From: Methanomicrobium sp. W14
GTDB taxonomy: Archaea; Halobacteriota; Methanomicrobia; Methanomicrobiales; Methanomicrobiaceae
Length of the DNA stretch: 64,000 nucleotides
Assembly (NCBI RefSeq): GCF_017875315.1
Contig: NZ_JAGGMM010000003.1
Span: 310,001-374,000, forward strand
Direction of reading: 5' to 3'
Part shown: in pieces, positions 46,887 through 52,837 of the stretch
Position numbering within the stretch: the first letter of the stretch is position 1
Layout of the letters: each line of letters starts with the position of its first letter
Notes under the pieces: model-generated
Told to the model about the DNA's origin: nothing
What the model saw: the letters and a program-made list of their open reading frames with translations, nothing else
Database searches by the model: none
Translations under genes and position numbers: made by a program

Positions 46887-46919
46887 TTTATATACAACCG
46901 TATAACCACAGGGTTGTAT
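46887..46919 (+). promoter_or_regulatory. Promoter with AACC-N4-GGTT palindrome before the PP2C gene
   Basis: TTTATATA (46887-46894) is an ideal archaeal TATA box. GTATAACC (46900-46907), ACAG and GGTTGTAT (46912-46919) follow, centred about 19 nt downstream; ATACAACC (46892-46899) forms a second, perfect 8-bp match to GGTTGTAT. The palindrome overlaps the expected transcription start, so it looks like an operator. A leader of about 150 nt would remain before the ATG at 47071. Confidence 0.5.
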
Positions 46920-47070
46920 GAAAAAACCGTTGTAATAGTGAATATTAATATAAATACAGGATAAATGTGAACAGAAAGAACACCTGAAATTTGCAGCATG
47001 TGTTCATACCCCTGCAGACTCAGGGACTTTTAAATTAAGTATTGAATATTTCAGAACGGAATAGTTGGTT

Positions 47071-47775
47071 ATGGATTACAGTGCTGTATCAGTTGCCGGA
47101 AAAAGAGTTTACAACGAGGACTCGTATTTAACAGCATGTGTCGGCAGAGGTCTTTTTCTGGCGGTCGCAGACGGTCTGGGAGGGCATGCTGCCGGCGAAG
47201 TAGCCTCGGGTATAGCCGTTTCAACTATAAAAAAAGTCTTTTCCGAAGGGTACTTTAAAGGAATGGACGTCGGCGAAAAGAAAGAGCTTTTAATTTTTGC
47301 GTTTAAAGAAGCTAATTCAGAGATAATTAAAAACGCAAAAGGCCCCAGACTTGGTATGGGAACGACTCTTGTTGCAGCCTTCGTGGAAAACGGGTGCGTG
47401 GTTGCCGCAAATACAGGCGATTCAAGATTATACCACTATGACGGAAGCCTCAGGCAGGTCTCGGTCGATCACTCGCTTGTCCAGGATCTTGTCAAAAAAG
47501 GGCTTATTGACCCGAAATATGCAAGATTTCACCCAATGAAGCATATCATAAACCATTCCCTCGGAGGCGATTTTACAGTTGATACTTATACCTTCAGCAC
47601 AAAACCCGGAGAGGTTATACTCCTTTCAAGCGACGGCCTGCATGATTATATAGAAACCGAAAACATTGAAGATATAATGCATGAAAAAAACGCCAACAGC
47701 ATTGCCAAAGGCCTCGTAAAAACTTCGCTGGAAACTTCAGAGGACAATATAACGGCCGTTGTAATGATCGTCTGA
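47071..47775 (+). CDS. PP2C-type Ser/Thr protein phosphatase
   Basis: 234 residues from MDYSAVSVAGKRVYNEDSYL (TTG at 47065 is an alternative). The metal-binding PP2C motifs are all present: NEDSY, VADGLGGHAAGEVAS, GMGTTLVAAF, AANTGDSRLYHY, DHSLVQDL, LLSSDGLHDYIE and EDNITAVV. It resembles the bacterial PppA/Stp class that reverses Hanks-type kinase phosphorylation. It is the first of three genes with the FHA regulator (75 bases on) and the membrane kinase, so its targets are probably those two. Confidence 0.93.
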   Translation: MDYSAVSVAGKRVYNEDSYLTACVGRGLFLAVADGLGGHAAGEVASGIAVSTIKKVFSEGYFKGMDVGEKKELLIFAFKEANSEIIKNAKGPRLGMGTTLVAAFVENGCVVAANTGDSRLYHYDGSLRQVSVDHSLVQDLVKKGLIDPKYARFHPMKHIINHSLGGDFTVDTYTFSTKPGEVILLSSDGLHDYIETENIEDIMHEKNANSIAKGLVKTSLETSEDNITAVVMIV

Positions 47776-47850
47776 AAATCCAAAATCCATAAACGGCATA
47801 ATATATACAATTAATAGTTTACCCGGCCTGAAAAGAGGGAGGCAGATGAA

Positions 47851-48624
47851 ATGAGTGATGAATTAAACGAAAATACAATTGCAATCTCAAACGATCCCGA
47901 TTTCTACAAAGATCTTTCGGAATACCTAAACGTACTCTCAAATCCTACAAGACTTAAAATTCTCAAACTGATTGAGCACCAGCCTAAAGAAGTCAGGGAA
48001 ATTGCAAAAGAAATAGACACAAGCTATGAAAACACGAAAAAACACCTGGACAAGCTTCTTAACACCGGTGTCATAAAAAAAGAGGCCGGCATGGGAAGGC
48101 AGACATCCAAGGGATCTCTTCCGGTATGGAAATACTCCCTTATACCCGGAGGTATGGAGGGCATAATCAGAAACTTAAGCATATTCAGCAACATCGACAT
48201 CAGGATAGGCGAAGAGGAACTGAACTCGAAACTGAAGTCCGTAAGAAGCATGCTTGAAAACGAGAACAAAACCAGAACACCTGTCCTTATAATCCTCGGC
48301 GGAGACGACGACGGCAAAGCATGGCCGCTTGAGGAGAGTGAAGTAAAAATAGGCCGTGAAGACCAGTCTGCATCAGACATAGAAAAAGACGGATCTGTTG
48401 TTCTTTCACCTTCATATGAGGCCGTAACAAGGGTTACGAAACCGCACGGCAGGTTTATAAAAAGAGGCGACGACTGGTACTTCGAGGACTGCAGAAGCAC
48501 AGGCGGAAGTTACATCAACAACAAAAAAATACAGGCAAACAGGCAGACACCTATAAAAGACGGAGATATGCTTGATCTTGCAAGGGGCGCAAAGGGTGCA
48601 AGGCTGATATTCAATCTGGGCTGA
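47851..48624 (+). CDS. Winged-helix DNA-binding protein fused to an FHA phosphothreonine-binding domain
   Basis: 257 residues; GGGAGG precedes the ATG. The N-terminal ArsR-like winged helix (about 25-95) reads LSNPTRLKILKLIEHQPKEVREIAKEIDTSYENTKKHLDKL in segments, with the recognition helix around SYENTKKHL. A linker leads to a C-terminal FHA domain (about 165-255): VKIGRE, then VTRVTKPHGRF, then FEDCRSTGGSYINNKKI and DGDMLDLA. The Gly-Arg, His and Asn of the family are present, the Ser of SxxH is Thr. It should bind DNA under control of a phosphothreonine, most simply on the kinase encoded next. Confidence 0.85.
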   Translation: MSDELNENTIAISNDPDFYKDLSEYLNVLSNPTRLKILKLIEHQPKEVREIAKEIDTSYENTKKHLDKLLNTGVIKKEAGMGRQTSKGSLPVWKYSLIPGGMEGIIRNLSIFSNIDIRIGEEELNSKLKSVRSMLENENKTRTPVLIILGGDDDGKAWPLEESEVKIGREDQSASDIEKDGSVVLSPSYEAVTRVTKPHGRFIKRGDDWYFEDCRSTGGSYINNKKIQANRQTPIKDGDMLDLARGAKGARLIFNLG

Positions 48625-48779
48625 AAAATATTCATACAATAGTTTCATAAACATTTTCTGCATTCGCGATAAACAGATATCTGATCAGACCTTAAAATAC
48701 AGCAACAGACCGGTAGGGCAAAATAATACGGTCATGCGGTGCGGAACAACAAAAAAAGCTTTTAAAACGGAAATTTTGT

Positions 48780-51269
48780 ATGAACGGAAGAAGAATACCG
48801 GCTGGAACCTGCAGTTTTAAAGGTTCACAAGCACGCAAAACCCTGTTTATTCTTCTTGCGCTGTTTATGCTTTTTATTCTTTTCACACCAGCCTCATCAG
48901 GCGAGATACGAATAGGTCAGACAGTCTATCCGTCAATTTCTGATGCCATTTCATCAGCTGAATCTGGTTCCACTATAATCGTCAGCAGCGGCGAATATAC
49001 CGGGAATTTCGTCATCGACAAGCCCGTCCAGCTTATAGGCGTCGATTCTGGTGACGGAAAACCGCAGATAATAACCGTGGACGGCGAAACAGGGATTACA
49101 ATAAACGCAGACAATGTCGTAATTGAAGGTTTCACCATAACAGGCGACTCGGAATGCGCAGTCCTGATAAATTCCGACAATAATATAATTGCCGACAACG
49201 AGATACTCAAAACGCCCGTAGGAATTACACTTTTCTCCTCTGCCGGGACATCAATATCTGGGAACACAATTAAAAACCATAGGATAGGGCTTTTTATTGA
49301 CGATTCGGCAGAATGCGACGTTTATCTCAACAACTTTGAGAATACAATAAACGCAAAGTCACTGTCACGCTCAATAATGTGGTCTACCGCAAGTATGCAG
49401 TACATATTTGGGGGACAGAATTTCACCTCTTCTCTCGGCAATTACTGGAACGACTACTATGGCAGCGATAACGACAATAACGGTATAGGTGATACTTCTT
49501 ACAGCCTTTACAATACCTTGGAATCCGGAATATTCAGCACGCAGAACCAGCTTTTCATGAACAACCTCAACCTCCAGAATCTTGCTACCGGAGGGAGCGG
49601 ATACTGGCAGAACCTCTTTTACACATCAAACTATGTCTCAGACGACTATCCCCTTATAGATCATACCGACATGTATACTCTTGTTGCCCCGGCAGGAACA
49701 GAATCAGGAGATAATACAGGTACTGCCGAACAAAGCCCGCAACCCGGCCAGCCCACAGAGGGTTCTCCGGCATACCAGCATCCACAGGGTTCCCAGCCCC
49801 CTGAAAACAACGAATGGTGGCATCAGCAGTCTCCTTTTGGAATTGTTATACTGATGCTCCTGATAGCAGGAGTCGCGGCAGGTCTTATAGCTCTTTCAGG
49901 AGGTGCCGGGTCGCTTACGACAGTAAAAAACAAAAGGATATCTGAAATTTTATTCTTTGAAGCAGGATATTTTGCCCTATCAGCTGCGCTATTATACACG
50001 ATAATATCCTACACTTCAAGGATTGTATACGGACTAATCGATTTCGGATATGTCCAGATTATATTCATTCTCATGACAGCATATATCATAGCGGCCTCGG
50101 GCATTATCGGAGCCGGGCTTATAAGATCAAAGCTGCCCTTACTTTTATGCAGGATACAACCTGTTTTTGCAGGCCTTACAACCGTAATGTTCTTTGTTTC
50201 TGTATACACATCGCCTGTTGACCTCGGTCCAATCTCTTCGGTCGCCTACCCTGCCGCCCTGCTTCTATCGGCGCTTTTACCCGCCGTATTCACCCGTCTT
50301 TTCAGGAATAACAGGAAGATCTGGATTAAGGAGGAGGAAGACAACAATTCAAGAACGATGGTTATGCCATATGACCAGGATTCAACCGTCGTCTTCCCTG
50401 ACGAGGAGTCCATTATGAAGACCGGGCTTGGCAGCTCATATTTCCCGGACACCCTGAACGAAAAATACAAGGACGTGAAGTTTATAGGCAAGGGGGGAAT
50501 TGCAAGGGTTTTCAGGGCTAAAAGAAGGTCTGATGACAGCGTAGTTGCGGTAAAAGTGCCGATAAACTTTGATGAGACAACAGGCAGACTCTTCATGAAG
50601 GAAATGAGAATCTGGGAAGGACTCAACCACCCGAATATCGTGAGGCTCTACTCGGTAAATATACTTCCCGTTCCTTTTGTAGAAATGGAGTATGTCCCAA
50701 GGGCAATAGCAGACCTTGATATGCCGCTTTCGCAGAAGGAGGCTTTTGATATCATATACGGCGTTGCACAGGGCCTATCATATGCCCACAAAAGACATAT
50801 CATCCACCGGGACATAAAGCCCCAGAATATACTCATTTCAGATGATGACACCCCAAAAATTACAGACTGGGGTCTCGGAAAAATTATGGGGGACGGTAAC
50901 GAGACCACAACAATAGGTTTCTCTTTAAACTATGCCGCGCCTGAACAGATAGCGCCAAAAAAATTTGGCAGGCCGGATGAAAGAACGGACATATACCAGA
51001 TGGGAATTCTCTTCTACGAAATGCTTGTCGGGATGAGACCTTTCTTTGGAATTGGCGTTGCCGACATGAGCGACGAGATACTCCACAGGACACCCCTGAA
51101 GCCCTCGGAAAACAGGCCTGAAGACATCATATTTGATAAAATTATAATGAAGATGATATCCAAAAAACCTGATGACCGCTACAATACGGTCGACGAGATA
51201 ATAGGCGAATTTGACAAAATTAAAAGTCATAACCGCGGCTTTGATATCGAATCTGACAGTGACTCATAA
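48780..51269 (+). CDS. Membrane Ser/Thr protein kinase with extracellular NosD-like beta-helix sensor
   Basis: 829 residues. A signal/anchor (about 20-40) precedes an extracellular parallel beta-helix of NosD/CASH type (about 50-290; NADNVVIEGFTITGDS, ENTINAKSLSRSIMW in parts) and a Pro/Gln/Ser linker. About five TM helices follow (355-520). The kinase domain (about 560-820) has GKGGIARVF, VAVKV, HRDIKPQNILI, TDWGLGK (DFG replaced by DWG), APEQ and RTDIYQMGILFYEML. It may sense a surface carbohydrate and phosphorylate the FHA regulator or itself. The short gap (155 bases) after the FHA gene lacks an obvious promoter. Confidence 0.92.
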   Translation: MNGRRIPAGTCSFKGSQARKTLFILLALFMLFILFTPASSGEIRIGQTVYPSISDAISSAESGSTIIVSSGEYTGNFVIDKPVQLIGVDSGDGKPQIITVDGETGITINADNVVIEGFTITGDSECAVLINSDNNIIADNEILKTPVGITLFSSAGTSISGNTIKNHRIGLFIDDSAECDVYLNNFENTINAKSLSRSIMWSTASMQYIFGGQNFTSSLGNYWNDYYGSDNDNNGIGDTSYSLYNTLESGIFSTQNQLFMNNLNLQNLATGGSGYWQNLFYTSNYVSDDYPLIDHTDMYTLVAPAGTESGDNTGTAEQSPQPGQPTEGSPAYQHPQGSQPPENNEWWHQQSPFGIVILMLLIAGVAAGLIALSGGAGSLTTVKNKRISEILFFEAGYFALSAALLYTIISYTSRIVYGLIDFGYVQIIFILMTAYIIAASGIIGAGLIRSKLPLLLCRIQPVFAGLTTVMFFVSVYTSPVDLGPISSVAYPAALLLSALLPAVFTRLFRNNRKIWIKEEEDNNSRTMVMPYDQDSTVVFPDEESIMKTGLGSSYFPDTLNEKYKDVKFIGKGGIARVFRAKRRSDDSVVAVKVPINFDETTGRLFMKEMRIWEGLNHPNIVRLYSVNILPVPFVEMEYVPRAIADLDMPLSQKEAFDIIYGVAQGLSYAHKRHIIHRDIKPQNILISDDDTPKITDWGLGKIMGDGNETTTIGFSLNYAAPEQIAPKKFGRPDERTDIYQMGILFYEMLVGMRPFFGIGVADMSDEILHRTPLKPSENRPEDIIFDKIIMKMISKKPDDRYNTVDEIIGEFDKIKSHNRGFDIESDSDS

Positions 51270-51343: not shown

Positions 51344-51363
51344 GTATAACCTTCTGGTTATAC
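51344..51363. repeat. Perfect palindrome GTATAACC-N4-GGTTATAC
   Basis: GTATAACCTTCTGGTTATAC has 8-bp arms and a 4-nt spacer. It is the best copy of the AACC-N4-GGTT element also present at 46900-46919 and 52326-52343. It lies 75 bases past the kinase stop and has no obvious gene to control; AATATACT (about 51318) could be a TATA box for an unseen RNA. Confidence 0.55.
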
Positions 51364-51719
51364 GACTGAATGACTTCTATTTTATCCATTTATATCAGGC
51401 AAGAATAACCTATTACCAAGGATGGTAAGAAGGCACAATACCCCTTCAATGCTCCATCTGAAAAAGGGCAATATGCCGGCAGACTTCTGCCGTATATCCC
51501 CCTCTGAGGGCATGTCTAAAAAAAACTATTCATGTCCCCGTTCAAGTTTAGTGAAAACCGGAGGTGATGCACAGGCATTGATTCCAGAAACATCATTAAA
51601 CAGAAGTATTGCAATTGATTCGACAGACCAAATCAGGTAGGATCACAATCCAAAATCACCAGATAAATAAGAAAACCAAATTAGCCAGAAACATAACAAC
51701 CGCCCCATAAGCGGGATAA

Positions 51720-51808
51720 TCTCTGCAAAAAACCCATATAATCACTCGACTCCAGACCTAAATAATCCTGATAATAATTCAGGGAATATCCTTGGTTTTT
51801 TGCAGAGA
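51720..51808. repeat. 89-base element with perfect 15-bp terminal inverted repeats
   Basis: TCTCTGCAAAAAACC (51720-51734) is repeated in inverse at 51794-51808. The 59-base interior contains CCTGA (51767-51771) and TCAGG (51779-51783) as an inner hairpin. No target-site duplication is evident. It could be a MITE-like element, or the double strand of a structured RNA. Copy number elsewhere in the genome would decide. Confidence 0.5.
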
Positions 51809-52159
51809 CTAAATATTTGTCCATCAATCTTAACATTAAAAATTAACTTTTTTTTGTTTTCACATCATCAAAGTTTTATTTCCGCATTTTTCCAAAAACA
51901 GGATTCACATGAAAATATTTACCAAAAATACGGCCTAAAGGGCAGCTTTTTTTTGAAAATGAATCTTTTTTGAAGGTAAATACATATAACTTTCGGATTA
52001 AACGTGATAATCCAATGCATTTAAACCATTTATATCTGCCCTGTACCAACTTATGATATAACAGGCAGAATACCATACAAAAAAAAGAATCAAAAACAGT
52101 CCTTGGAAAAAAAGGTTTTAATTTTAATGATTCTTACGGCCTGAAAGGGAGAGATATGA

Positions 52160-52246
52160 ATGATGCAAAAAGAAGCAAAAATAGCACTGGGAATTCATTT
52201 GACACTCATTGTGATATTCGGTGTCCTTATTTCGGCACTGGCATAA
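52160..52246 (+). CDS. Possible 28-residue single-TM protein
   Basis: Two adjacent ATGs (52160, 52163) follow AGGGAGAG by 6-7 bases. The product is MMQKEAKIALGIHLTLIVIF and eight more residues ending GVLISALA in part: a short basic start and one hydrophobic helix. An overlapping frame from 52156 gives 72 residues without domain features and was set aside. The good ribosome site and membrane-helix composition are the only support. No family known. Confidence 0.4.
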   Translation: MMQKEAKIALGIHLTLIVIFGVLISALA

Positions 52247-52325
52247 CCAAAAGATATTTTTCAGCCCTTTTTCTACGGGCAACAAATCCTCAGCATTTTT
52301 TGGGAAAAGGTATAATTTCCTTGGA

Positions 52326-52343
52326 TTTAACCTTCCGGTTAAA
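52326..52343 (+). promoter_or_regulatory. TTTAACC-N4-GGTTAAA palindrome in the promoter of the 52451 lipoprotein
   Basis: TTTAACC (52326-52332), TTCC, GGTTAAA (52337-52343). GGTATAAT (52309-52316) is a likely TATA box with its centre about 21 nt upstream of the palindrome centre, the same layout as at 46887-46919. The palindrome would cover the transcription start. Confidence 0.5.
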
Positions 52344-52450
52344 TGGACTAATCAGGTACATTAAAACCATTTAAGTTGTTCACTGAAAAAAAGTACCGGT
52401 TAAACAGTAAAACAATATCATCAAAAACCAAAAGCCGGCGTGAAAAAACA

Positions 52451-52837
52451 ATGTGCATTATAAATATTATAAAAACAGGGCTTCTGCTGCTTTTAATATC
52501 AGAAACAGCATTTATTTCAGGATGTACTGACAATGCACAGAACTCTGCGGCAGACAAACAGGTGACAACTTTGACTTCTGCCACTCCTGCAGAAACTTCC
52601 CTGAATACGGAATATGAACTGAATTTTATGAAGGATATATTAAGAGAGATGGAAAATCAGGGCAAAAATGTCTCCGCACCTCTTGAGACATACAGGACTG
52701 CAAGGGACCAGGCAAGGACAAACGATGACGAAGGATTTGAACAGTCTCTTACTCTCTTCTACAGGCAGTGCAACATGATAATGGTGGAAGTTTATAGTTC
52801 GAATAAAACAGAGACAAAAGTCAGCTTCTACTCTTAA
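52451..52837 (+). CDS. Small predicted lipoprotein
   Basis: 128 residues from MCIINIIKTGLLLLLISETA with lipobox ISGC (Cys25). The TTG at 52376 would add a basic leader and was set aside. A Thr/Ser/Ala-rich spacer is followed by a helical part (LNTEYELNFMKDILREMENQ in parts, FEQSLTLFYRQCNMIM). No family recognised. Its promoter carries the AACC-N4-GGTT palindrome, which may place it under the control of the signalling cluster at 47071-51269. Confidence 0.7.
   Translation: MCIINIIKTGLLLLLISETAFISGCTDNAQNSAADKQVTTLTSATPAETSLNTEYELNFMKDILREMENQGKNVSAPLETYRTARDQARTNDDEGFEQSLTLFYRQCNMIMVEVYSSNKTETKVSFYS

Follow-up and report, generated by a model that had tools for sequence, protein, structure and literature searches.

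Organisation of the cassette

A 64,000-nucleotide stretch of the Methanomicrobium sp. W14 genome (positions 310,001 to 374,000 of contig NZ_JAGGMM010000003.1; hereafter the window, whose numbering is used throughout) carries a cassette of three genes examined here as a candidate link between a membrane kinase and gene control. The three genes, described in an earlier note on this DNA, are intact and all lie on the plus strand: a PP2C-type Ser/Thr phosphatase (47071..47775), a transcription factor with an ArsR-type winged helix and an FHA domain (47851..48624; hereafter the regulator) and a membrane Ser/Thr kinase (48780..51269). The operon is preceded by an operator palindrome (GTATAACC-ACAG-GGTTGTAT, 46900..46919, no strand assigned) and a plus-strand TATA-like box (TTAATA, 46945..46950) at an offset of 41 from the AACC of the palindrome, which takes the same position before the PP2C gene in loci L021-L024, L107 and L120.

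The regulator matches Pfam HTH_5/ArsR (1.8e-8) and FHA (1.3e-8), the latter covering residues 144-257 (48280..48624, plus strand). Superposition of the FHA model on solved FHA structures gave Z scores of up to 16.5 and a root-mean-square deviation of 1.4 over 99 residues, with matches to DgcB (including complexes with its tail and with a phosphopeptide), GarA, EmbR, OdhI and ArnA. The phosphate-contact residues are kept (Arg169 in 81/81 sequences, Ser/Thr196 in 79/81), and conservation across Arg169, Ser/Thr196, Thr217 and His199 is ~91-100%. In the N-terminal tail, a candidate phospho-switch residue, Thr9 (codon 47875..47877, plus strand), is retained in 80 of 81 regulators, while the rest of residues 1-16 is variable; it is followed by a hydrophobic and then mostly acidic residues, and AlphaFold predicts residues 1-13 to be disordered (predicted local distance difference test score <50). 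This near-invariant threonine, which the earlier note had missed, points to a self-binding switch like that of GarA and DgcB.

The kinase matches Pkinase (3.7e-43) and NosD (4.3e-17) in Pfam. Its AlphaFold model comprises an N-terminal hydrophobic helix, a confident NosD-like extracellular right-handed beta-helix (residues 43-217, 48906..49430), five predicted membrane helices (residues 352-507, 49833..50300) and a catalytic domain with HRD and DWG motifs (residues 557-817, 50448..51230), all encoded on the plus strand. If the N-terminal helix is a signal peptide, the odd number of membrane helices after the extracellular domain fits a cytoplasmic kinase domain. The Hanks-type residues K592, E608, D678, N683 and D696 are invariant in 69 kinases, as is the aspartate of DWG, which stands in place of DFG, and among solved structures the domain is closest to PknB (28% identity). 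The phosphatase matches Pfam PP2C_2 (1.1e-12) and the NCBIfam Stp1/IreP type (3.6e-56, but below the NCBIfam cut-off), with its metal-binding motifs DGLGGH, GTT, GDSR, SSDG and EDN intact. The catalytic residues of both enzymes, as judged from these motifs, are thus complete, which supports the reading in the earlier note.

The sensor part differs among 53 kinases of the order Methanomicrobiales: NosD was matched in 24 and a beta-helix in 17 (overlapping sets), and PEGA in 13, so that about half have a beta-helix, a quarter have PEGA and the others neither; a PASTA domain was found in none of the 53. The proposal that the NosD domain reads an outside signal may therefore hold for the window copy, but does not extend to the order, across which the sensor is exchangeable.

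Linkage and distribution of the regulator-kinase pair

The genome has four FHA matches and as many strong canonical kinases, arranged as four adjacent pairs with the gene for the winged helix-turn-helix (wHTH)-FHA protein first, and no FHA protein lies outside these pairs in this genome; a fifth, weaker kinase match above the cut-off is an atypical kinase at locus L018. The window copy shares 45-48% identity with the other three FHA proteins, and the paralogue pairs are evidently old. In the paralogue kinases at L016 (7062-8225) and L017 (8377-10215), HCD and HHD replace HRD, and their activation therefore probably differs. Genes for a MacB-type exporter and CARDB proteins stand beside FHA-kinase pairs in many genomes, at L110 (2231-5393), L108, L112, L121, L113, L115, L122 and L125. 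A role in defence was considered and rejected: PADLOC picked up only generic kinase domains (PD-T4-6 and Mad6) and HTH parts (Csa3), and the neighbouring genes showed no sign of a defence system.

The adjacency is not a chance linkage: in 60 of the 64 loci with room for one, the FHA gene is followed on its own strand by a kinase gene no more than 300 bp away. The genes are thus linked in relatives, where their separation would have spoken against the earlier note. The three-gene cassette that it had described is real as linkage, but the core unit is the FHA-regulator and kinase pair, the PP2C gene standing beside only one of the four. Of 150 sampled genomes of Methanomicrobiales, 98 carry the wHTH-FHA protein, as do 29 of 35 genera of the order; at E<=1e-12, 393 sampled genomes of the phylum gave no match outside this order among the matches listed. 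The named loci likewise belong to Methanomicrobiales, except that one record bears the label Thermoplasmata and several are classified no further than Euryarchaeota.

PP2C lies directly 5' of one FHA gene, on the same strand, in at least 19 Methanomicrobiaceae genomes; among the matches listed it also lies directly 3' in one genome of this family, on the same strand, and 1.5-6 kb away in six further genomes, always on the same strand. Gene order varies, being FHA-kinase-PP2C in G045, G053 and G101, and FHA-PP2C followed by a second FHA-kinase pair in G047. Survival of the linkage through rearrangement supports a shared function; 16 FHA-carrying genomes are without PP2C among the matches listed, and the phosphatase may thus be dispensable or its role filled elsewhere. 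A split layout is also seen at L116 (5116-11600, equal to the L032 region), where FHA-PP2C is followed by a second, diverged FHA gene beside a kinase, the diverged protein being without Thr9. The only other PP2C of the genome belongs to a separate vWA, PP2C and atypical kinase-like triad (L018, 4017-7341) resembling TerY-type triads.

Operators, promoters and candidate targets

The AACC-N4-GGTT sites pointed out in the earlier note (46904, 51348 and 52329) proved to be real cis elements in genome-wide and cross-genome counts. The genome holds three perfect copies of GTATAACC-N4-GGTTATAC and one with two mismatches; two of the four flank the window cassette, one lies ~207 bp 5' of the ABC exporter operon adjoining paralogue pair 4, and the best whole-genome matches cluster at FHA-kinase cassettes. 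With at most one mismatch, the palindrome core is present at 26 of 80 cassette heads (27 of 77 after start correction), compared with ~0.3% of random segments. Of 32 distinct exact sites from Methanomicrobiaceae, 21 have a TATA-like hexamer that starts exactly 41 bases beyond the first base of AACC, with 29 bp between GGTT and the hexamer; no other offset occurs more than four times. In the 150 genomes, counts of TAACC-N4-GGTTA against a reversed control were 124:61 where the wHTH-FHA protein is present and 30:48 where it is absent (Fisher p 3e-5, an indicative value because related genomes do not contribute independent sites). From what is known of archaeal promoter architecture, a fixed operator position 29 bp 5' of the TATA box suggests an activator, rather than the repressor that the earlier note had assumed.

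Operator promoters in the window precede the operon itself, a conserved untranslated-looking block and two small proteins, a membrane peptide and a lipoprotein. The perfect palindrome GTATAACC-TTCT-GGTTATAC (51344..51363, no strand assigned) and a plus-strand TATA box (TTTATA, 51389..51394, offset 41) stand before a transcribed-looking block (51415..51760, plus strand), a probable small RNA overlapped by a 72-aa open reading frame (ORF). The block is highly conserved (TTGATTCGACAGACC..AATCAGGTAGGATCA, AAAATCACCAGA, ACTCGACTCCAGA) 3' of the kinase gene in 6/6 genomes of the genus and has no significant match in Rfam. A variant operator (TATAACTTTCGGATTA, 51985..52000, no strand assigned), with a TATA-like box at 52029 and again an offset of 41, precedes the plus-strand ORF of the membrane peptide (MMQKEAKIALGIHLTLIVIFGVLISALA, 52160..52246), which thus has its own operator and TATA box and has relatives in L024 and L107. 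The plus-strand lipoprotein gene (52451..52837), without a Pfam match, lies 3' of a third palindrome, ATTTAACC-TTCC-GGTTAAAT (52325..52344, no strand assigned).

Short conserved small-RNA-like sequences also follow the operator promoter in other genomes, in tandem in G037 and G083. A family of ~200 nucleotides (nt), which begins with CAATCTATTGATCAGAGTGTT and ends in a GGCAGACCC..GGGTAA hairpin, is found behind such promoters at L195 (2439-2769, as two tandem copies), L197 (3019), L198 (2978) and L200 (3103, minus strand). At L194 (2846-3372) the promoter occurs twice in tandem, 514 bp apart, and the 146-nt sequences that follow the two copies are 97% identical and contain no evident gene. Rfam searches of these small-RNA-like loci returned nothing significant except signal recognition particle RNA in L194, and covariation in the conserved blocks was weak or lacking, so no RNA structure is claimed. 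Because promoters with the operator, the 29-bp spacing and the TATA box repeatedly precede conserved transcripts that are short and keep no reading frame, in some cases as tandem copies, we tentatively suggest, at somewhat less than even odds, that the main output of an order-wide pathway is a family of small RNAs, with an external signal leading through phosphorylation to small-RNA-based control. In several genera the operator promoter also stands before an operon of two genes, one of them for a Cro/C1-type HTH protein, as in this genome (C2:307757) and in L192, L196 and L199. The Cro/C1-type operon at L137 (5617-6636) likewise lies behind an operator and, in L137 and L192, is divergent from an ABC-type ATPase gene.

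A candidate route from membrane kinase to promoter

We consider it probable (about 0.6) that the membrane kinase and the FHA-winged-helix transcription factor form a dedicated pair that PP2C resets, with Thr9 the likely switch. This reading is built on features of the sequence (the linked genes, their domains and catalytic residues, Thr9, the juxtamembrane motif, and the operator with its spacing and excess), from which we infer phosphorylation of the regulator by the kinase, binding of a phosphopeptide by the FHA domain, direct DNA binding by the winged helix, the sign of regulation and the signal. An outside stimulus, acting through the exchangeable extracellular and membrane part, would switch the kinase on, and the kinase would autophosphorylate, likely at a juxtamembrane Thr-hydrophobic-hydrophobic motif (Thr536 in the window copy, 50385..50387, plus strand), a possible docking site for the FHA domain of the regulator. 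The docked regulator would then be phosphorylated at Thr9 in its disordered tail, and the phosphorylated tail would bind the FHA domain of the same molecule or of its dimer partner, changing the state of the winged helix at the AACC-N4-GGTT operators 29 bp 5' of the TATA box. The regulator would most likely activate the operon that encodes it, together with a small regulon, and PP2C would reset the switch.

Some observations that speak for this route carry reservations, and others weigh against it. In its favour, the juxtamembrane motif is present in 36 of 62 kinases, compared with 8.1 +/- 2.7 in shuffled sequences, but the kinases are related, so that the enrichment is less significant than these numbers suggest, and the motif is missing in the other 26. 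Also in its favour, the similarity matrices of FHA proteins and kinases are correlated (Mantel r 0.89, and 0.73 for pairs <70% FHA identity), although this is largely expected from shared species history. In the AlphaFold model, which represents the unphosphorylated monomer, the tail is unbound and outside the FHA cleft. The asparagine of S-T-N-G, a pT+1 contact, is glycine in 78 of 81 regulators, and in an alignment with Rad53 an asparagine stands opposite this glycine; the domain may therefore bind its ligand weakly or in another way. The operator excess over the control, confined to genomes with the wHTH-FHA protein, is an association rather than proof of binding; two of the four paralogue pairs (L015 and L016) have no good palindrome upstream, and neither have several cassette heads of Methanoculleus and Methanolinea.

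Some of these points invite other explanations. The glycine would suit an FHA domain that no longer reads phosphothreonine and has become a structural or dimerisation module, the kinase having other substrates; retention of Arg169, Ser/Thr196, Thr217 and His199 and the near-constant linkage to a kinase make this improbable, and with the phosphate contacts kept and the asparagine replaced we regard phosphopeptide binding as probable rather than proven. A less remote, though still unlikely, alternative takes the tail switch away: as for EmbR, the FHA domain would only dock the regulator on the autophosphorylated kinase, and phosphorylation elsewhere would alter DNA binding. The embR-pknH operon has the same gene order and its FHA domain is needed for phosphorylation (PMC9239209), the juxtamembrane motif is enriched and EmbR is among the top structural matches, but the near-invariance of a single threonine in a variable tail is then left unexplained.

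The associative nature of the operator evidence and the two pairs without a site would equally suit a promoter under another regulator, of whose regulon the cassette is merely a member. We give this a similarly low probability, as the best matches in the genome cluster at cassettes, the excess is seen only with the wHTH-FHA protein and sites flank cassettes in several genera. Some palindromes are found soon after the stop codon of the kinase gene or in the gap of a convergent gene pair, as stem-loop terminators would be. This reading is very improbable and was rejected, because head sites are often found between divergent genes (19 of 42 have a minus-strand upstream ORF) and the 29-bp spacing to the TATA box is exact.

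What is known of Ser/Thr signalling to transcription in archaea comes mainly from the archaellum network of Sulfolobus. The dedicated pair proposed here would represent a separate, order-wide methanogen system, with candidates for the sensor kinase, the phosphatase, the phospho-reading DNA-binding protein, an operator of fixed promoter geometry and the targets. The conserved residues of the proteins and the rigid promoter that the loci share point to a full path from signal to gene, much like a two-component system but assembled from eukaryote-like parts. The question of how euryarchaeal Hanks kinases reach genes can thereby be addressed directly, at a defined DNA site and at residues T9, R169 and T536. 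Control of genes through FHA proteins and kinases is not new in archaea, its precedents being ST0829 and ArnA (PMC7226565, PMC6509490, PMC10470591). The earlier note had called such a route little described in archaea, which overlooks EmbR-PknH and ST0829/ST1565 as forerunners but holds in part: no archaeal wHTH-FHA and kinase pair was found described in the open-licence papers searched, in which the layout, the family, the promoter grammar and the possible small-RNA output appear undescribed.

The archaeal precedents, ST0829 with its kinase ST1565 and ArnA/ArnB, share FHA proteins tied to kinases and gene regulation. Promoter binding by ST0829 is reported to be inhibited by phosphorylation (PMC7226565); ArnA, whose Sulfolobus islandicus homologue showed no detectable DNA binding (PMC10470591), has a Zn-ribbon, no wHTH and a vWA partner. 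The linked genes for a kinase nearest PknB and a phosphatase nearest Stp1/IreP recall PknB/Stk1 with Stp1-type PP2C, but the methanogen proteins score below the equivalog cut-offs, and the kinase has DWG in place of DFG and a beta-helix or PEGA sensor in place of PASTA. GarA, OdhI and DgcB, the closest structural matches, have the same FHA fold and disordered N-terminal tail with a single conserved threonine, and in each of them the tail is described as a ligand of the protein's own FHA domain (PMC6733907). They control enzymes, whereas the methanogen FHA domain is fused to a winged helix and tail binding is a proposal; DgcB, moreover, uses an asparagine (N97) for tail contacts, and the asparagine of S-T-N-G is glycine in the methanogen proteins. 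Like the Sulfolobus regulators, EmbR-PknH of Mycobacterium is among the closest known systems; here too a single operon holds the gene of an FHA transcription factor and, 3' of it, that of a membrane Ser/Thr kinase, and in EmbR the DNA-binding domain is N-terminal and winged and the FHA domain C-terminal (fold match Z ~15). EmbR combines an OmpR-type domain with BTAD, whereas the methanogen regulator has ArsR-type HTH_5 and FHA with no BTAD matched, and the methanogen system differs further in its archaeal TATA promoters, near-invariant tail threonine, linked PP2C and paralogous pairs. The regulator thus works like EmbR but is not a member of the EmbR (SARP/FHA) family, and since the parallel is drawn with different DNA-binding parts, such an arrangement may have evolved on more than one occasion.

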